From NCBI RefSeq assembly GCF_000306785.1, contig NC_017955.1, positions 992,001 to 1,056,000 of the forward strand: a DNA stretch of 64,000 bases. The letters run 5' to 3'. The position numbers were made by a program, and so were the translations under genes. Positions 21,477 through 45,319 of this stretch are shown here, piece by piece. Numbering within the stretch: the stretch's first letter is position 1; every line of letters starts with the position of its first letter. The notes beneath the pieces were generated by a model. The model had not been told where the DNA came from, searched no databases, and saw only the letters and a program-made list of their open reading frames with translations. This DNA is from Modestobacter italicus (GTDB lineage: Bacteria; Actinomycetota; Actinomycetes; Mycobacteriales; Geodermatophilaceae).

Positions 21477-21668
21477 TTGCCAGTGTTTTTGTCAGCCCCG
21501 GGGCCTAGCGTCCGCAGTGGAGGACGGGTTCCACCCCGTCGTCCACGGGAGGCCCGGTTGGTGCGACTTCGTACGTCGACCAGAGGGGCCGCGTCCCGGC
21601 CCCTGCGCCGGGACCCGGCCACCCTCGAGCCGGGGCGCGCTGTGCGCCCCACGGGAGTCGACTCGTGA
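21477..21668 (+). CDS. Possible small upstream gene coupled to phoH2 (PhoAT-like position)
   Basis: A 63-codon frame from a TTG at 21477 ends in TGA at 21666-21668, overlapping the phoH2 GTG by four bases (GTGA). The product would be basic and Pro/Arg-rich. In mycobacteria a small antitoxin gene (phoAT) lies directly before phoH2. I see no sequence signature to confirm that here, and the region also contains a strong RNA hairpin, so this may be untranslated leader. Confidence 0.3.
21517..21546 (+). promoter_or_regulatory. Strong RNA hairpin in the phoH2 leader
   Basis: GTGGAGGACGGG (21517-21528) pairs with CCCGTCGTCCAC (21535-21546), 11 pairs with one G-G mismatch and a 6-base loop. It lies 120 bases before the phoH2 start, in an otherwise unexplained 242-base leader. 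Confidence 0.5.
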
Positions 21669-22960
21669 CCACTCGCCGCACGTTCGTCCTCGACACCTCC
21701 GTCCTGCTCTCCGACCCGGGCGCGCTGCTGCGCTTCGACGGGCACGACGTGGTGCTGCCCCTCGTGGTCATCAGCGAGCTGGAGGCCAAGCGCGACCACC
21801 CGGAACTCGGCTGGTTCGCCCGGCAGACCCTGCGCGCGCTCGACGACCTGCGGCTCCAGCACGGCCGGCTCGACGCCCCCGTCCCGGTCGGCGACCAGGG
21901 CAGCACGGTGCACGTGGAGCTGAACCACAGCGATCCCTCGGTGCTGCCGGCCGGCTTCCGCAACGACAGCAACGACAGCCGGATCATGGTGGTCGCGCTC
22001 AACCTCCGCGGTGAGGGCCGCGACGTCTGCCTCATCACCAAGGACGTCCCGCTCCGGGTCAAGGCCGCGGCGCTGGGCCTGGAGACCGACGAGTACCGGG
22101 CGCTGGGCGCCGTCGACGCCGGCTGGACCGGGATGGCCGAGCTCTCCGTCGACGAGTCGGAGATCCAGTCGCTCTACGAGCGCGGGTCGGTGCACCTGCC
22201 GGCTGCCGCGGAGCTGCCCACCCACACCGGGCTGGTGCTGCTGTCCGCCCGCGGCTCGGCGCTGGGCCGGGTGCTGCCGGACAAGCAGGTGCGGCTGGTC
22301 CGCGGCGACCGGGACGCCTTCGGCCTGCACGGCCGGTCCGCCGAGCAGCGGATCGCGCTGGACCTGCTGCTGGACCCGGAGATCGGGATCGTGTCGATGG
22401 GCGGCCGCGCGGGCACCGGCAAGTCGGCGCTGGCGCTGTGCGCGGGCCTGGAGTCGGTGATGGAGCGGCGGGCGCACAAGAAGGTCGTGATCTTCCGGCC
22501 GCTGTACGCCGTCGGCGGCCAGGAGCTCGGCTACCTGCCCGGCAGCGAGGGCGAGAAGATGGCGCCCTGGGCGCAGGCGGTCTTCGACACCCTCGGCGCG
22601 CTGGTCTCCTCCGAGGTGGTCACCGAGATCCTGGCCCGCGGGCTGATCGAGGTGCTGCCGCTGACCCACATCCGCGGGCGGTCGCTGCACGACTCGTTCG
22701 TGATCGTCGACGAGGCGCAGTCCCTGGAGCGCGGGGTGCTGCTCACCGTGCTGTCCCGGCTGGGCACCAACAGCCGGGTGGTGCTGACCCACGACGTCGC
22801 GCAGCGGGACAACCTGCGGGTCGGCCGGCACGACGGCGTCACGGCGGTGATCGAGGCGCTGAAGGGCCACCCGCTGTTCGCCCACGTGACCCTGACCCGC
22901 TCCGAGCGCTCGCCGATCGCCGCCCTGGTCACCGAGATGCTCGAGGACCTGCCGCTCTGA
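21665..22960 (+). CDS. phoH2: PIN-PhoH fusion protein (PhoH2-like)
   Basis: 431 residues in two domains. The N-terminal PIN ribonuclease domain begins [14 protein letters not shown], holding acidic active-site residues, with later acidic residues near RIMVVALNL and [11 protein letters not shown]. The C-terminal PhoH ATPase has Walker [14 protein letters not shown] and Walker [13 protein letters not shown], then [16 protein letters not shown]-PhoH proteins are described in mycobacteria as RNA helicase/RNases acting in a toxin-antitoxin pair. The GTG at 21665 overlaps the small upstream frame. The gene ends at a long perfect hairpin. Confidence 0.9.
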
Positions 22961-23015
22961 CGGTGTGCGCTGAGGCCGGGTCCCCCGGGTCGGAACCCGG
23001 CCTCAGCGCACACCG
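22961..23015. repeat. Long inverted repeat, copy 1; bidirectional terminator
   Basis: A perfect 21-bp stem (arms 22961-22981 and 22995-23015, core GTGCGCTGAGGCCGGG) with a 13-base loop sits just after the phoH2 stop and overlaps the last codons of the convergent DUF559 gene. A same-length degenerate copy lies at 23982-24033. Confidence 0.8.
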
Positions 23016-23935
23016 AACAGCCGCCGGCGCGCGGCATGGGTCGACCGGACGTCCTGCTGGCACCCCGCGGCATCGCCGGTCATCCGGGCGTAGCCGAACC
23101 GGAGGGTCTGCCAGCCGACCGTGGCGAGCACCGCGTCCCGCCGGATGTCGTCCTCGCGTTGCCGACGGGAGCCGTGCCAGGCCGCGCCGTCCATCTCCAC
23201 GGCCAGCAGGACGTCGTCGTAGGCGGCGTCCAGCGCGAAGCGCTCACCGGCCACGGTGATCCTCCGCTGCTGCACGAAGGGCGGCATGCCGGGTGCGCGC
23301 AGGACGTGCAGGCACCCCCAGATCTCCAGCTCGGACTGGCACCCGTCGGCCAGCAGCTGGACCAGCTCGGCGAGCTCCGTGCGGCCCGGCAGCCGCGGCC
23401 GACGGGCGAGCTCCGCCGCGATGTCCCCCGCCGAGCAGAGGCGTCGACGCACCGCCGAGATCGCCGCCGCCCGCAGCGAGGGGCGGGCCTGACCTCGCGA
23501 CCAGCCCCAGGCATCGACCACGGCGCGCGCGACGCAGGTGACGGGGATGCCGGACACCCGGCGGGTGAGCTCGCCGATGTCGGGAGAACGGTGCAGCAGC
23601 ACGCCGGCCGACCCTCGGGCGCTGCGCGAGGCCCCGACGGTGAGGTGCACCGGCCCGCCTGCCGGTGGCAGCAGGTCCCACAATGCCAGGGCCGTGCCGT
23701 GGCTGACCACGGCGCCACGGACGTGCGCCAGTGCGGCCACCCGCGTCCGCCAGTCCCGGGCGGCCACCGGTGTGGCGTACACGCCGGGCTGCAACCGGAC
23801 CAGCCGACCGGTGGCCACCCACGCGTCCACCGTGCCCCGGTCCACCCGGTGGACGAGCCGCTGCCGGGTGATCCAGCCGGTCGGGCCCACCAGTGCGTCG
23901 ACGTCCCAGGTCACTCGAGGAGCGTGTGCGGCCAC
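23003..23935 (-). CDS. AbiEi-like N-terminal domain / DUF559 C-terminal protein
   Basis: 310 residues. The N-terminus (ITRQRLVHRVDRGTVDAWV, LVRLQPGVYATP) resembles the winged-helix AbiEi antitoxin domain. The C-terminus (FALDAAYDDVLLAVEMDGAAWH, RDAVLATVGWQTLRFGY) is the DUF559 restriction-endonuclease-like fold with the acidic residues and Glu of that family. Such proteins are common multi-copy accessory genes in actinobacteria; no toxin partner (AbiEii) is adjacent. The gene is bounded by two related inverted repeats, which suggests it was inserted here. The GTG at 23935 is uncertain; another GTG at 23913 is possible. Confidence 0.7.
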   Translation of the reverse strand: MAAHAPRVTWDVDALVGPTGWITRQRLVHRVDRGTVDAWVATGRLVRLQPGVYATPVAARDWRTRVAALAHVRGAVVSHGTALALWDLLPPAGGPVHLTVGASRSARGSAGVLLHRSPDIGELTRRVSGIPVTCVARAVVDAWGWSRGQARPSLRAAAISAVRRRLCSAGDIAAELARRPRLPGRTELAELVQLLADGCQSELEIWGCLHVLRAPGMPPFVQQRRITVAGERFALDAAYDDVLLAVEMDGAAWHGSRRQREDDIRRDAVLATVGWQTLRFGYARMTGDAAGCQQDVRSTHAARRRLFGVR

Positions 23936-24035: not shown

Positions 24036-24278
24036 TCAGGCGGCGGGGGTGGTCTCCGGCTGGGGGTCGGCCACGGTCTTCGGTGTGGCCTTCGGCGGCG
24101 GCGGCGGGGCGCTGGCGAACCGCACCACGGCGACCACGACCCAGCCGGCAGCCAGGCACCACAGCAGCCGGTGGACCACCTCCTGCGCGGTGAACTCCCC
24201 GCGCAGCCCCAGCAGGAACACCGGGACGGCCAGCACGAAGCCGGTCAGCAGGACGTCGCCGCGGAGCGGGCCGGTCAC
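24036..24278 (-). CDS. Small membrane protein at the end of the flhA-flhF operon
   Basis: 80 residues from a GTG that overlaps the flhF stop by four bases (GTGA). Two hydrophobic segments ([17 protein letters not shown] and [17 protein letters not shown]) flank a short loop, and the last 25 residues are Pro/Lys/Thr-rich ([12 protein letters not shown]). This gives a hairpin membrane protein with a cytoplasmic tail. The coupling to flhF suggests a role with it at the membrane, but no family is recognised. Confidence 0.65.
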
Positions 24279-27200
24279 CCCTCCAACTCCTCCAGCCGCT
24301 CACAGAGCAGCGACGCCCAGCGGTGCGCGGTGGCCCGCGCGCCGTCCACCAGCGCCACCGGCACCGACACGTGGTCGAGCACGGCGGCCGGGTCGGCGGT
24401 CGAGTCGGTGTCCTGGACGACGACGGCGTCCAGCCGGGGCAGGCCGTCCAGCCACGGCACCAGGTCCTCGGGCTTGCGGGTCGAGTCGAGCACGCCCCAC
24501 ACCGCGGTCGGCGACCAGATGGTGAGCATGTGCTCCAGCCACGGCCCGCCCGACGTCCGCAGCGGGGCGTCCACGGCGATGATCGTGACCGTGCCGCGCG
24601 CGGCGCTGGCCTGCTGCCGCTCGGCGGCGGTCTCCAGCGAGGTGATCCGGCTGCCCTCGGGGGCCAGGCCGGCGAGCGCGCCGGAGGCGGCCCACTGCAC
24701 GTCCTCGGGCTCGAGCCGCAGGGAGAGGGCCAGCGACCGGGCTGCGGCGAAGGTCTCCGCGCCCGGGCCGACGACCATCAGCACGTCGCCCGGCTGGGTG
24801 GGCAGGTGCGGGGCGGCCGGCAGCCGCTCGGCGAGCGTCCGGGTCAGCGCCGCGTAGACCCCGCGGAGCGCGGCGTCGTCGGTGAAGTCCGGGCCGAGCA
24901 GGGAGGCCGGCAGACCCAGCGTCAGCAGCCGGACGACGAGCTCCTCGGCGACGTCCATGCCGTACGGGGCCAGCGCCGTCGACGCCGACACCGCCGGCAC
25001 CAGCCGGGTCACGGTGGCGAGCCGGGTGCTGGTCTCCGGGCCGGCCGGCAGCTCGGCGGCAGGCCGGCGCGAGCCGATCGGCACCGGGACCGGGACCGGC
25101 CGGGTGGCGATCGGCGTGCGGCCGGTGCCGGCCGGACGGCTGGCCGGCACCGGCGGTCGCCCGCGGCGAGCCGGGGGGACGGCGGGTCGCTGGGACTGCG
25201 GCGGCTGACCACCGGTGATGCTCAGCCGCGGCAGGACGAGGGTGGCGTCCATCGGCAGCGGGGCCGGGTCGCTGGCGGTGCGCGCCAGGGGCGCGCTCAG
25301 CGAGACCGGGACGGCGAAGCGCTGCTCCTCGACGGGCACCGCGACCGGGACCTCGATCGGGCGCGGCTCGGTGACCCGGACCTCCTCGGCGGCGGTCTCG
25401 GCGACGACGACGGCGTCGACGACGAGCGCCTGCGCGGCCGCGACCTGCGCCGCGCGCTGCGCGACCCGGGCATCGCTGGCCCAGCCGGGGCCGGACCAGG
25501 CGTCGGGCCGGTGGGCACCGGTGTCGTAGGCGCTCGACTCGGCGCCGCGGGTGTCGTAGGCAGAGGGCTGGGGGAGCTCCTGCTCGGCGGTGACCGGCGC
25601 GGCGGTGACGGCCAGCGGGGCACCGGCCTCGGGCAGGCGGTGCCGGCCGCGGCCGGAGCCGTTCGCCGCCAGGACCTCCTCCAGCAGGGCCGCCAGCGCC
25701 TCGTCGGCGCTGCGGACGGACTCCACCATGGACAGCGGCGAGCCGGCCAGCGCGACGGCCTCCCGCTCGCGGCGCTCGGTCCCCAGACGCTCGGCGACGA
25801 TGCGGGCCGCCTCCTGGCGCACCGCCTCGACCCGCGCGGCCTCGGCGTCGGCCGCTGCCTGGCGGCGCGCGGCCTCGACGCGAGCGGCTTCGATGCGAGC
25901 AGCTTCGATCCGGGCAGCCTCGACCCGGGCAGCCTCGACCCGGGCGGCCTCCTGACGGGCGACCTCGATGCGGACCGCCTCGAGACGCTCGGCCTCCAAG
26001 CGCTCGGCCTCCAAGCGCTCGGCTTCGACGCGAGCGGCTTCGATACGAGCAGCCTCCAGGCGCTCGGCTTCCAGACGCTCGGCCTCGAGCCGCTCGGCCT
26101 CGAGCCGCTCGGCCTCGAGCCGCTCGGCCTCCAGGCGCTGAGCCTCGAGCCGCTGAGCTTCGAGCCGCTGAGCTTCGAGCCGCTGAGCTTCGAGTCGCTG
26201 GGCTTCGATCCGGGCGGCTTCGATCCGGGCGGCTTCCAGTCGCTCGGCCTCGAGCCGCTGCGCCTCGAGACGCTGCGCCTCCAGGCGCTCGGCTTCGAGC
26301 CGCTCGGCTTCGAGCCGGGCGGCCTCGGCGGCAGCTGCCTCGGCCTCGAGCCGCGCGGCCTCGGCGGCAGCGGCCTCGGCGTCACGGCGGGCGGCCTCCG
26401 CAGCCGCGGCGACCGCCTGCAGCCGGGCGGCCTCGGCGGCGGCAGCCTCGGCCCGCAACCGGGCGGCCTCGGCAGCAGCGGCGTCGACCCGGGCAGCAGC
26501 GGCACGCGCCGCCTCCGCGGCGGCGCTCTCGACCGCGGCGACCCGGGCGGCGGCCGCGTCGGCGGCGGCGACCTCACGGGCCTCCGCCTCGGCGGCAGCG
26601 GCCTCGGCGGCCGCCTCGGCGGCGACCTGCACCGGGTTCGAGGCAACCATCCGGGTGAGGGCGGCGGCGAACGGCGACGGCCCGGCCGGCTCGGCCGCCC
26701 GCTGGGCCGGCTCGACCGGCTCGGGAGCGAGGTCCTCGGGGGACAGCATCAGCGTGTGCTTGGTCGGGGTGAACGGCTTGGCGTCCGCCCGGCGCGGGGC
26801 GGCGGCGGGCTCCCGGGTCGTCGGCACCGGCGAGGCGGCGCGGGCGGGGGTGGCGGCGCGAGCCGGGGAGGCGGTGCGGACGGACGACGGCGCGGTCGCG
26901 CCGGTCGACGCCGGTGCCGCGGCACGCCGCACCGGCCGCGCGGCGGCGGACGGCGCAGCGGCGGACGGCGCAGCGGCCGGCTGGGCCCCGGCGCGGCCGT
27001 AGAGGCCGACGGGCTGCGGCTCCGGCGAGGCGGACCCGAGCAGCTCGGCGAGTTCCTGCATGCGGTCGTCCATCGACGCGGCCGGCCGCGGCTCGCGGGC
27101 GCCGGTCTTGAGCAGCGAACCGGTGTCGGGGCCCTTGACCGGGTCGGCCTTGGGCACCTCCACCTCGGCGATGAACCGCTCGTTGGTGAAGAAGCCGAAC

Positions 27201-27316
27201 ATGCCGCCGGAACGGATGCGGCGCACCCCGACGACCCGTGCGGTGGGGCCGAACTGCTCACGCGCGGCGGCGATCGCCTCGTCACGCGTGGCGGCCTCAA
27301 CGGACTGCGAAGGCAC
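24275..27316 (-). CDS. flhF: Giant FlhF-like protein with degenerate P-loop and pentapeptide-repeat helix
   Basis: 1013 residues, over twice the usual FlhF length. Residues 1-55 match the FlhF N-domain ([36 protein letters not shown]). Residues ~60-240 are Ala/Pro-rich linker. Residues ~240-330 are Ala/Glu-rich, and ~330-483 are near-perfect pentads of the form xR[LIV]EA ([15 protein letters not shown]). The C-terminal ~220 residues align with the FlhF GTPase domain, but the P-loop reads [12 protein letters not shown] and lacks the Walker A lysine. It directly follows flhA, as flhF does elsewhere, and overlaps it by 20 bases from a GTG. FlhF sets flagellar number and position; here it is more likely a scaffold than a GTPase. 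Confidence 0.7.
25855..26330. repeat. 15-base tandem coding repeat (pentapeptide xR[LIV]EA)
   Basis: About 31 degenerate copies of a 15-base unit encode Arg-(Leu/Ile/Val)-Glu-Ala plus one variable residue. On the plus strand the unit appears as variants of GCCTCGAGCCGCTCG. Near-identical adjacent units suggest recent slippage expansion. Confidence 0.85.
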
Positions 27317-29339
27317 CGTTCACCACTCCCAGGGACTCGATCTGGGCCGTGCGGGAGACCTCGTTGTACGAGATCACCGACAGCCGGGGCAGGACCTGGC
27401 GGACCAGGCGGGACAGGGCGGCGCGCACCTGCGGGGAGCAGACGAGCACGGGGGAGAGGTTGAGCCGGTCGGCCTGGTCGAGCAGCTCGGTGCAGCCCCG
27501 GACGAGGGAGTCGACGGTGTGGCCGTCCAGGGCCAGCACCTGACCGTTCTCGGTGGGGCGGACGGCCTCGAGCAGGCGCTGCTCGAACGCCGGGTCGAGG
27601 GTGATCACGTGCAGCCGCTCGTCCGGCGTCACGTACGGCTGGCTGATCGCGCCGCCGAGGGCGGCGCGGACCGCCTCGACCAGACCGTCGAGGTCCGTGG
27701 ACTTCTTCGCCCGCAGCGACAGCGCCTCGAAGATGCGGACCAGGTCGCGGATGGAGACGCCCTCGTCCAGCAGCGCGTGCAGCACCCGCTGCACCTCGCC
27801 CAGGCTGAGCAGCGCGGGGGTGAGCTCCTCGACGACGGCCGGGTGCGAGCGGCGGACCATCTCCACCAGCACCTTCACGTCCTCCCGGCCCAGCAGCGCC
27901 GACGCGTTCTGCCGGACCACCTCGGCCAGGTGGGTGGTGATGACCGACGAGCGGTCGACGACGGTCGCGCCGGCCATCTCGGCCTGCCGCTGCAGCTCCG
28001 CGGGGACCCACTTGGCGGCCAGCCCGAACACCGGCTCGGTGGTGGGCTTGCCCGGCAGGCCCTCCAGGTGGTCGCCGATGGCGAGCACGGTGCCGGCGGG
28101 GGAGTTGCCCCGCGCCGCCGGGACGCCGTTGAGCCAGATGACGTACTGCGAGCCGGGCAGGTCCAGGTTGTCCCGGGTGCGCACCAGCGGGATCACCAGG
28201 CCGGTCTCCATGGCGACCTTGCGGCGCAGCGCCTTGACCCGGTCCAGCAGGTCGCCGCCGCGGGCGGTGTCGACCAGCTCGACGAGGTCGAACGCGACCT
28301 CGAGCTCCAGCGGGTCCACGCGCATCCGCTCGACGATCGCCTCGGGGGAGTCCGGCTGCGGCTCGTCGGGTGCCTGCGCGGCGGCCAGGGCCTCCTCGTC
28401 GACGTCCGGCTTCTCGGTCAGCCGGGTGGAGAGGAACAGGAAGAGCCCGCCGATCACCAGGAACGGCAGCTTGGGCAGGCCGGGGATCAGGCACAGCGCC
28501 AGGGCGGCGCCGCCGGCGATCCGCACCGGCTGCTTGTTGCGGCCGAGCTGGTCGAGGAGGTCGGTGCCCATGTCGCTCGAGGAGGCCGAGCGGGTGACGA
28601 TGAGGCCGGTCGCGGTGGAGATCAGCAGGGCGGGGATCTGGGAGACCAGGCCGTCGCCGACGGTCAGCAGCGAGTAGGTGGAGACGGCGTCGGCCGGCGC
28701 CATGCCCTTCTGCATGATCCCGATCGCGAAGCCGCCGATCAGGTTGATCATCGTGATGATGATCGCGGCGATGGCGTCGCCCTTGACGAACTTGCTGGCG
28801 CCGTCCATCGAGCCGTAGAAGTCGGCCTCGGAGGTGACCTCCTGGCGGCGCTTGCGTGCCTGCGTCTCGTTGATCAGGCCGGCGTTGAGGTCGGCGTCGA
28901 TCGCCATCTGCTTGCCGGGCATCGCGTCGAGGGTGAAGCGGGCGCCGACCTCGGCGACGCGGCCGGCACCGTTGGTGATGACGACGAACTGGATGATCGT
29001 GAGGATCACGAAGATCACCAGGCCGACGATCAGCGAGCCGCCGATGACGAAGTGCCCGAAGGCCTCGATGACCTTGCCGGCGTAGCCGTCGCTGAGCACC
29101 AGGCGGGTCGAGGAGACGTTCAGCGCCAGCCGCATCAGCGTCGCGATGAGCACCAGCGACGGGAAGACGGCGAAGTCCAGCGGCCGCTTGATCTGCATGG
29201 AGACCAGCAGGATCAGCAGCGACGCGACGATGTTGAAGCCGAGCAGCAGGTCCAGCACGGCGGCCGGCAGCGGGACGACGAGCATCAGGACGATGGAGAC
29301 GACCCCGATGGGGACGGCGACCTTCGTCAGCTTTCCCAC
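27297..29339 (-). CDS. flhA: Flagellar type III export gate protein FlhA
   Basis: 680 residues, the normal length. Eight membrane segments occupy the first ~330 residues ([20 protein letters not shown] and others). The FHIPEP family signature is [18 protein letters not shown]. The cytoplasmic C-terminal half builds the export ring that docks substrate-chaperone complexes such as FliS-FliC. The GTG at 29339 has GAGG upstream. It is separated from flhB by a hairpin and a sigma-28-type promoter, so it opens a new unit with flhF and the small membrane gene. Confidence 0.96.
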
Positions 29340-43393: not shown

Positions 43394-44268
43394 GAGTGCA
43401 GCACCTCCAGCACGCGCTGCAGGGCGCTGGTCAGCTGGGCGTCCACCCGGACGCTGCCGGCCTCGGCCAGCGCGCCGGCGCGCTCCACGGCCTCGTCGGC
43501 CACCACGGTGACGGAGGCCGGTAGCTGGGCCAGCGCCGCCGCGGGCACCTCGGCGAGGTCGTCGGGGTGCAGCCGGACGACGACCGGCACATCGGTCGGG
43601 CACAGGGTCAGCGCCCGGCGGAGGGCGTCGAGCCCGTTGGCGTCGGCGGTGGCCACCTCGCGGCCGAGCAGGTCGCCCACCAGCAGCACGACCGCGTCCA
43701 GGACGCTGTCCCGCAGGTCGTCGACGACCGGCGCCGCGGTGGCGTCCAGGCGCTCGACCGCCGCGCCCATCGCCGCCGTCGCGGAGGCCAGCCGGCGCTC
43801 CCAGCGGGCCTGCACGTCGGCGAGACGCTGCTCGGCGGCGCGCTCGGCGGCGGCGACGACCTGACCGGCGGCCACCAGGCCCTCGGCGTGGCCGGCGGCC
43901 CAGCCCTCCCGGCGGGCCTCCTCGCGGAGCCGCTCCAGCTGCTCGGCGTAGACGTCGCCCAGCCGCCGGCCGGTCGGGCCGGCGGCGCCGGCCTCCCCCC
44001 GGGCGGTGCCCACGTCGAGCACGACGCCGGCGTCGGTGGCGCGCCGCGCGGGCGGCACCGGAGCGGCCACCGGGGCGCGGGGTGCGGGAGCGGGCGGCGG
44101 GACCGGGGCAGCAGCGTCCACGGGCTGCTCGCTGCGCCGTCCGGAGCGACGGCCCCAGGTCGGGGCGGCGCCGGCCCGCTGGTACGGGACCGCCTCGGCG
44201 GCGGAGGAGCCGCGCAGCAGCAGCGTCTCCCGCGGCTCGCGCCGCTCAGGCGACGAAATCGTCCTCAC
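43390..44268 (-). CDS. fliH: Flagellar assembly protein FliH
   Basis: 292 residues. The Pro/Ala-rich first third is variable. The middle is a coiled coil (YAEQLERLREEARREGWAAG), and the C-terminal domain (VRLHPDDLAEVPAAALAQLP, GSVRVDAQLTSALQRVLEVL) is FliH-like. It binds and inhibits FliI and links it to the C-ring. The GTG start overlaps fliG by 23 bases; no better start is present. Confidence 0.9.
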   Translation of the reverse strand: MRTISSPERREPRETLLLRGSSAAEAVPYQRAGAAPTWGRRSGRRSEQPVDAAAPVPPPAPAPRAPVAAPVPPARRATDAGVVLDVGTARGEAGAAGPTGRRLGDVYAEQLERLREEARREGWAAGHAEGLVAAGQVVAAAERAAEQRLADVQARWERRLASATAAMGAAVERLDATAAPVVDDLRDSVLDAVVLLVGDLLGREVATADANGLDALRRALTLCPTDVPVVVRLHPDDLAEVPAAALAQLPASVTVVADEAVERAGALAEAGSVRVDAQLTSALQRVLEVLHS

Positions 44269-45319
44269 CGCCCCGCGAGATGGTCAGCGCACCCTGCTCC
44301 TCGAGCGTGCGGATGACGGCGACGATCTTGGCCTGGGACTCCTCGACGGTCCGGGTGCGGACCGGGCCGAGCAGCTCCATCTCCTCCAGCAGGTTCTCCC
44401 CGGCGCGCTCGGAGAGGTTGCGGACCACCTTGTCCCGGACGTCCGTGCGGACGCCCTTGAGCGCGGTGGCCAGGTCGTTGGCCTCGACGTCGCGCAGCAC
44501 CAGCTGCAGCGACCGGTCGTCGATGGTGACGATGTCCTCGAAGACGAACATCTGCGAGCGGATCCGCTCGGCCAGCTCCGGGTCGCTGCCCTCCAGCCAC
44601 TCCAGGATGGAGCGCTCGGTGGGCCGGGAGGAGCGGTTGATGATCTCCACCAGCGTCTCGACGCCGCCGACGGTGGCCATGTCCTGGTAGGCGAGCAGCG
44701 AGCCCATCCGGCGGCCCAGCTCCTCCTCGACCATCCGGACCATCTCCGGCGAGGTGCGGTCCATGACGGCGATCCGGTAGGCGACGTCGGCCTGCTGGTC
44801 CGGCGGGAAGCCCGACAGCACCTCGGCCGACTGCGGCGCCGGGAGGTGCGCCAGCACCAGGGCGATGACCTGCGGGTGCTCGTCCTTGAGGAAGGTGACC
44901 AGCTGGCGGACGTCGCTGTTGCGCAGCGAGGCGAACGGCAGCTCGGTGTAGACGACGTTGAGCCGGGAGAGGATGCCGTCGGCCTTCTCCTCGCCCAGGC
45001 CGGCGGCGAGCACCTCGCGGGCGAACTCGACGCCCCCGGTGCCGACGAAGCGGCGGGCCTGCATCAGGGAGTGGAACTCGCTGAGCACGTCGTCGACGTC
45101 GGCGCCGTCCACCCCCTGCAGGCGCATCAGCTCGCTGGTGAGCTTCTCGACCTCGGAGGGGCGCAGCTGCGCGAGCACGGCGCCGGCCTCCTCCTTGGAG
45201 AGCTGGGCCAGGAACACCGCCGCCTTGCGCAGGCCGGGCAGCTCCTTGCGGGCCACCACGACGGGCATGACCGAGGTCGGTGCCACCCCGACGAGCTGTT
45301 CGACGCTGGCGATGCTCAC
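44246..45319 (-). CDS. fliG: Flagellar motor switch protein FliG
   Basis: 357 residues. The N-domain RKAAVFLAQLSKEEAGAVLA and the C-terminal torque helix region QMFVFEDIVTIDDRSLQLVL with DVRDKVVRNLSERAGENLLE hold the charged residues that meet MotA. The GTG at 45319 has GAGGAG about 8 bases upstream. A hairpin and a sigma-28-type promoter lie between fliF and fliG, so fliG opens a new unit. Confidence 0.96.
   Translation of the reverse strand: MSIASVEQLVGVAPTSVMPVVVARKELPGLRKAAVFLAQLSKEEAGAVLAQLRPSEVEKLTSELMRLQGVDGADVDDVLSEFHSLMQARRFVGTGGVEFAREVLAAGLGEEKADGILSRLNVVYTELPFASLRNSDVRQLVTFLKDEHPQVIALVLAHLPAPQSAEVLSGFPPDQQADVAYRIAVMDRTSPEMVRMVEEELGRRMGSLLAYQDMATVGGVETLVEIINRSSRPTERSILEWLEGSDPELAERIRSQMFVFEDIVTIDDRSLQLVLRDVEANDLATALKGVRTDVRDKVVRNLSERAGENLLEEMELLGPVRTRTVEESQAKIVAVIRTLEEQGALTISRGGEDDFVA

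Follow-up and report, generated by a model that had tools for sequence, protein, structure and literature searches.

An FlhF-derived gene beside flhA in Modestobacter italicus with degenerate GTPase motifs and a predicted helical rod

In other bacteria FlhF contributes to positioning the flagellum. It is described as a GTPase stimulated by FlhG, and DQAxxL is given as part of the FlhF-stimulating motif of FlhG (excerpts of PMC11236974). For Shewanella, the same excerpts report that FlhF binds FliG through its FliG interaction domain (FID) and, regardless of nucleotide, HubP through its NG domain. In Pseudomonas aeruginosa, GTP binding regulates the interaction between FlhF and FliG, according to the available portion of PMC12713375. 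The retrieved part of a survey by Zhu et al. (2023) states that the classes lacking FlgFG also lack FlhF, and counts Actinomycetia among them (PMC10746217). By the same part, the survey began with BLASTP and PSI-BLAST queries, which could have missed a gene as divergent as the one described here. The portion of a 2025 review of FlhF and FlhG that was available contains no word starting with 'actino' (PMC12826062), and 'FlhF' is absent from the retrieved text of a Geodermatophilaceae genome survey that deals with flagellar genes (PMC9686282). Our literature search, which covered open-licence papers, found no published description of this gene family.

We analysed a stretch of 64,000 nucleotides (the window) from Modestobacter italicus, whose genome is a single contig of 5,575,517 bases (99.97% complete). 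It holds a gene whose product has, by sequence comparison and structure prediction, an FID-like N-domain, a linker, and an NG-fold C-domain that has neither the lysine of the P-loop nor a TKxD motif. This is probably a strongly altered FlhF, which has kept the FliG-side end, lost the GTP signatures and carries a long, probably stiff, rod in its middle. In the genome searches, 'same family' stands for Geodermatophilaceae and 'same class' for Actinomycetes; L-numbers (e.g. L099) designate fetched loci and G-numbers (e.g. G091) genomes.

The gene and its surroundings

The open reading frame had been given without its strand in the original prediction. It is present on the minus strand and, as had been stated, it is placed after flhA, with which it overlaps by 20 nt. 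The main features of the locus are:

24275..27316, minus strand: FlhF-derived gene that has lost its GTPase motifs; 1013 aa, GTG start
27297..29339, minus strand: flhA; TIGR01398 match of 806.5 bits, above the cut-off
44246..45319, minus strand: fliG, the expected partner of the N-domain; Pfam FliG_N, FliG_M and FliG_C
24036..24278, minus strand: 80-aa ORF, by eye a possible small membrane protein, overlapping the stop codon of the FlhF-derived gene

Both fliF and fliG lie within the window, in the same cluster as the FlhF-derived gene. A long plus-strand frame across 24275-27316 seems to result from the high G+C content, and Rfam gave no match anywhere in the window. The 80-aa ORF has no Pfam match; its N-terminal half is hydrophobic by eye, and co-translation with the FlhF-derived gene is possible. 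Just past the flagellar cluster lies a gene for a MTES_1575/DUF559 endonuclease-like domain protein (23003-23935, minus strand), and a PhoH-like ATPase, named by eye, is encoded at 21665-22960 on the plus strand.

The AF2 model of the full-length protein has a pLDDT of 53.8 and a pTM of 0.26. With this model, Foldseek gave no match at or below E 1e-3, the best one being FtsY at E 1.2e-3. Two long linkers are mostly disordered in the prediction:

26642..27145, minus strand: Pro/Ala-rich linker 1 (residues 58-225), most of which has a pLDDT near 30; a single helix at 82-94
24962..25660, minus strand: linker 2 (residues 553-785), likewise with a pLDDT mostly near 30; a single helix at 614-635

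Linker 2 contains short conserved patches, seen as invariant columns of alignment A3.

The two ends of the protein and the GTPase motifs

We compared both ends of the protein with FlhF and with the SRP GTPases. The features concerned are:

27146..27316, minus strand: N-terminal domain, residues 1-57, the putative equivalent of the FlhF FID; predicted beta-alpha-beta-beta
24278..24979, minus strand: degenerate SRP-GTPase NG domain, residues 780-1013, predicted from hhalign, AF2 and Foldseek
24740..24775, minus strand: degenerate P-loop, residues 848-859 (12 residues), lysine absent

The claim that the first 55 residues match the FlhF N-domain was borne out, for residues 1-57, by three comparisons. 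The N-profile aligned with FlhF N-domains in hhalign at 97.8% (E 3.9e-12). NF009366 matched the N-terminus at E 1.4e-4, far under its curated whole-protein cut-off, and TIGR03499 matched the 80-aa N-terminal piece at E 0.003 with 17.6 bits, far short of its curated cut-off of 174.15 bits. NF009366 also matched all 15 rows of the mixed N-profile A4, which is made of 11 same-class sequences and four true or intermediate FlhF. In a PDB search, the best match of A4 was 9en1, an FlhF N-terminal structure (E 4.4e-6); with the 11 same-class rows alone, this FID crystal came only second, at E 0.052. Pfam Jag_N gave a sub-threshold match to the N-terminal piece (E 0.17). The secondary structure predicted by AF2 (strands 4-8, 27-37 and 44-53, helix 11-22) has the make-up of one helix and three strands that the excerpts of PMC11236974 give for the FID of Shewanella FlhF. 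By these comparisons the N-domain is homologous to the FlhF FID, and its binding to FliG is putative.

The C-domain is far more divergent. Searched as a single sequence, its 234 residues gave no match in Pfam, in NCBIfam or among PDB sequences, and the C-profile A1 matched no PDB sequence up to E 10. Profile-profile comparison was more sensitive: in hhalign, a C-profile of 39 sequences aligned with the FlhF NG domain (12 FlhF and two intermediates) over 236 columns at 97.0% (E 2e-10), and with the 12 FlhF NG domains alone at 88.5% (E 3.1e-7). The score is 56.1; 50 column shuffles reached no more than 9.1, and the other controls gave 2.3 for the reversed profile, 5.7 for a flhA profile and 5.2 for a flhB profile. 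Single FlhF-type sequences matched the C-profile mostly weakly (1/14 above 50%), so that the homology rests on the profile-profile comparison and on the HMM ranking. In this ranking by the C-HMM, the genome's own Ffh scored lower than 13 of the 14 FlhF-type sequences (L100 barely ahead of it) and its FtsY lower than all 14; the matches to FtsY and Ffh themselves have E 0.85 and 0.0059. This disfavours an origin of the C-domain from FtsY or Ffh. The reverse search, of an FlhF HMM on these C-domains, gave weak matches (best E 0.0014).

The AF2 model of the C-domain, built on 13 rows, has a pLDDT of 75.6 and a pTM of 0.65. Foldseek found 95 PDB matches to it at E ≤ 0.001, and all 50 listed are SRP-GTPase structures; the FlhF structure 8r9r ranks 11th (E 1.5e-6, TM 0.51, rmsd 13.5). 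Among the matches listed, TM-scores of 0.43-0.55 and rmsd of 12-16 indicate a likeness of fold, not of detail. The C-terminal domain is thus of FlhF type, as first predicted: we considered whether it might lack homology to FlhF and the SRP GTPases, and these comparisons indicate that it is homologous to FlhF, with a predicted SRP-GTPase NG fold. It is 96% identical to its counterpart in Modestobacter excelsi.

The absence of the Walker A lysine was confirmed at residues 848-859. It had been presented as peculiar to this gene, and this did not hold. For the same family, we read the P-loop at 99 C-domain loci. They come from 97 genomes, all those that match (98) except G081, whose match is partial. 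The loop has the form GPGx[ED][TA], without lysine, at every one of these loci, and a relative with an intact GKT, which we looked for specifically, occurred in 0/99. The TKxD motif (G4) is likewise absent from all 99 loci, with QDTD and similar sequences at its place, and the DTAGR-type G3 motif is replaced by VDAPLR and similar sequences in the FlhF-derived gene. Reading 25 further same-class C-domains (19 + 6) by eye, we found no GK[ST]. Since the lysine is missing in the whole family sample and in all these other same-class domains, the loss of the GTPase motifs is, as far as motifs tell, the rule in the FlhF-derived family after flhA and not a quirk of the one gene.

The degenerate loop might be re-purposed rather than dead, giving the C-domain a novel mode of binding a nucleotide or another ligand. 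The retention of GPG and an acidic residue in 99/99 same-family loci despite the loss of the lysine speaks for such a site. However, the loop differs outside the family (VGEG, VGET, VGSG and others), and the G4 base-recognition motif is gone too. We consider a re-purposed site quite unlikely.

The pentad array and the helical rod

The features in the middle of the protein are:

25748..26635, minus strand: Ala/Glu/Arg helical rod, residues 228-523, predicted from AF2 helices and composition
25871..26320, minus strand: 30 contiguous pentads xR[LIVQ]E[AV], residues 333-482; a period-15 tandem repeat in the DNA

The repeat had been described as about 31 units at residues ~330-483, which agrees with our count. 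Comparing residues 226-520 with themselves at a lag of 5 gives an identity of 0.65, whereas the lags from 1 to 22 that are not multiples of 5 give 0.15-0.27. The 30 units are written in 24 different DNA 15-mers. Comparing every unit with every other at its positions 2-5, we counted 858 synonymous and 387 non-synonymous differences; a synonymous share of 69%, against the 29% expected for random single changes, argues that the array is kept at the protein level. A fresh origin by DNA slippage was rejected on this synonymous excess and the diversity of DNA forms.

AF2 predicts two helices, 228-403 (176 residues) and 411-523 (113 residues). The pLDDT of the block is mostly 71-86, falling to 45-62 at residues 391-420, and the helix is interrupted at 402-411, where confidence is low. 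Taking 0.15 nm for each residue, the rod would measure about 44 nm if all helical. We found no hydrophobic stripe in it, the power near 100 degrees being about 0. A classical coiled coil is rejected on this ground, and the remark that a five-residue period does not suit a heptad proved right. Single alpha-helix (SAH) domains and TolA-like helical spacers are similarly rich in Glu, Arg and Ala, without heptads and with a long helix; in known single helices, Glu to Arg at i+4 is the commoner stabilising spacing. In the rod, Glu to Arg pairs are enriched at i+3 (39 observed, 10.2 in 500 shuffles) and depleted at i+4 (4, against 10.6 shuffled). Arg to Glu pairs at i+4 number 17 against 11.1, and like-charge pairs at i+4 are rare (acidic 1 against 15.1, basic 0 against 7.9).

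We surveyed the rod, with a looser pentad motif, in the window's protein and in 13 full-length relatives from the same genus. The Ala/Glu/Arg region ranges from 198 to 438 aa and the pentad run from 3 to 33 units. Two further loci of the genus, L121 and L122, have no pentad helix. In other genera, an uninterrupted stretch of more than 50 residues occurs in only 2 of 19 loci, L061 (101 residues) and L063 (64). The pentad helix is thus confined to part of the window's genus, and the idea of a protein built around this repeat is not supported. We take the rod for a lineage-specific spacer, which may have arisen more than once.

A true ruler, in which a stable single alpha-helix of fixed length sets the distance between FliG and a landmark, would account for the favourable charge pairs at i+3 and i+4, the few like-charge pairs, the missing stripe and the two long predicted helices. 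Such a ruler is nevertheless very improbable: variation in region length and run length argues against a precise ruler, L121 and L122 do without the repeat, and Glu to Arg pairs at i+4 fall below the shuffles. For the proposal of a stable single-helix spacer or ruler, the prediction shows long helices, and a tolerant spacer is the likelier of the two roles.

Two loci show other arrangements. In L119 (G091), the N- and C-parts lie in different overlapping frames, a frameshift or an assembly error, and the rod was not judged. In L058 (G066), the frame has 1660 aa and Tyr/Ala/Pro/Gln repeats follow one another along its linker in a long row, a different linker expansion within the family.

Distribution, proposed role and comparison with known systems

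Among 112 same-family genomes, 98 encode the C-domain and 100 encode FlhA: both occur in 96, FlhA only in 4, the C-domain only in 2 and neither in 10. Among 394 same-class genomes, the C-profile matched 21, of which 19 are outside the family, and FlhA occurs in 51, including all 21 carriers. The region after flhA was read in 20 of the 30 same-class genomes with FlhA and no profile match. It encodes N- and C-domains in six, the N-domain only in two, a weak N-domain in one, and none in 11. In the two N-domain cases (L175, L177), the N-domain and a tail adjoin flhA, with no C-domain in any frame; in the weak case (L176), the contig ends inside the frame, which prevents a judgement on its C-part. 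With no such gene after flhA in 11/20 and the N-domain alone in two, the FlhF-derived gene is dispensable in places. In 12 same-class loci taken together, the gene was flagged beside flhA by the motif filter in 11, and in the twelfth (L107) by profile coordinates. Two of the same-class loci, L073 and L084, have a PilZ-like ORF, named by eye, after the FlhF-derived gene.

True FlhF above the family cut-off was found in 15 of 396 genomes across the phylum, all of the same phylum and none of the same class. L099 and L100 are FlhF intermediates, which fall below the cut-off, keep GKT and already have the GG..GFF signature in the N-domain. A second FlhF elsewhere in the window's genome was not found: TIGR03499 matched three places, none above the cut-off. 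Two are FtsY (L013) and Ffh (L014), both named by eye; the third is a weak match at 605797-605928 (L015).

In other classes, 5/5 loci have flhA, a flhF that keeps GKT and a flhG of MinD type side by side. In L111, flhF escaped the motif filter and was located from its coordinates, which fall between the two other genes. DQAxxL is present in each of the five flhG products. No KGGVGK[ST] ORF was found in the 12 same-class loci or in the fetched stretch around the GKT-bearing L099 and L100, and no KGGVGK-type frame in the window. Elsewhere in the window's genome there are five MinD/ParA-like matches; none of the four ORFs recovered by the motif filter has DQAxxL. Because L099 and L100 keep GKT without an adjacent flhG, the loss of flhG does not track the loss of the GTPase exactly.

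These distributions could reflect a decaying relic, in which the GTPase domain is vanishing, only the N-domain (or nothing) matters, and the pentads are neutral drift of a low-complexity linker. The phylum does offer a series from GKT-bearing FlhF in other classes to GTPase-dead proteins in the window's class, to the N-domain only (L175, L177), to none in 11/20; linkers vary freely in length and sequence; and the two parts are out of frame in L119. Yet the C-domain persists in most same-family genomes (98/112), has 51 invariant columns in 20 members picked for diversity, and shows a dN/dS of 0.15-0.30 in 7/7 comparisons with same-genus relatives, and the pentads are held by amino acid, not by codon. 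We thus regard a relic as unlikely. In the N-domain, dN is lower than dS in the same 7/7 comparisons; three of these are close (dS 0.05), which makes its ratios (up to 0.5) rough.

The non-GTPase scaffold that had been suggested from the sequence emerges as the likeliest role, given the homology to FlhF at both ends and the lost lysine. We find it fairly probable that the protein is an FlhF descendant working without a GTPase cycle, as a tether or scaffold for FliG. Its N-domain would still bind FliG, and its NG-like domain would dock through protein-protein contact on a landmark, either polar or positional. The protein could then serve as a constitutive scaffold that holds the nascent C-ring/MS-ring at its site, there being no neighbouring FlhG that would reset it, and the long Ala/Glu/Arg helix of the window's lineage would be a tolerant spacer rather than a measured ruler. 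The nucleotide-independent binding of HubP by the Shewanella NG domain makes a nucleotide-free tether plausible (excerpts of PMC11236974). The effect of GTP in P. aeruginosa implies that a GTP-free FlhF may not simply keep its FliG function (available portion of PMC12713375). A more specific version, in which a nucleotide-free FlhF places the flagella, the GTPase cycle and FlhG are lost, and a permanent tether links FliG to a landmark through a rod of up to ~45 nm, is possible but doubtful; it is weakened by the GKT-bearing intermediates that also lack an adjacent flhG. If the scaffold role is true, this lineage would separate, testably, the scaffold role of FlhF from its switch role. The family also bears on the scoring of the later actinobacterial classes as FlhF-less in the retrieved part of PMC10746217.

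The closest known system is FlhF itself, from Shewanella, Vibrio, Pseudomonas, Bacillus and other actinobacterial classes, with which the FlhF-derived gene shares the position after flhA, an FID-like N-domain, a linker and a predicted NG fold, the profiles aligning collinearly over 236 columns. Unlike FlhF, it has lost GKT, the DTAGR-type G3 and TKxD, and has no adjacent FlhG-type ORF. At 12 loci from other classes an entire FlhF frame measures 386-457 aa, less than the linker of this gene's product, which has about 720 aa. FtsY and Ffh have the same NG fold as its C-domain in Foldseek, but they have intact P-loops and lie elsewhere in the genome. Finally, the rod resembles SAH domains (see PMC5347031, PMC5378345 and PMC12204202) and TolA-like helical spacers in being rich in Glu, Arg and Ala, in lacking heptads and in its predicted long helix; it differs from them in its strict five-residue period, in the i+3 spacing of Glu to Arg, and in that its helix is a prediction.
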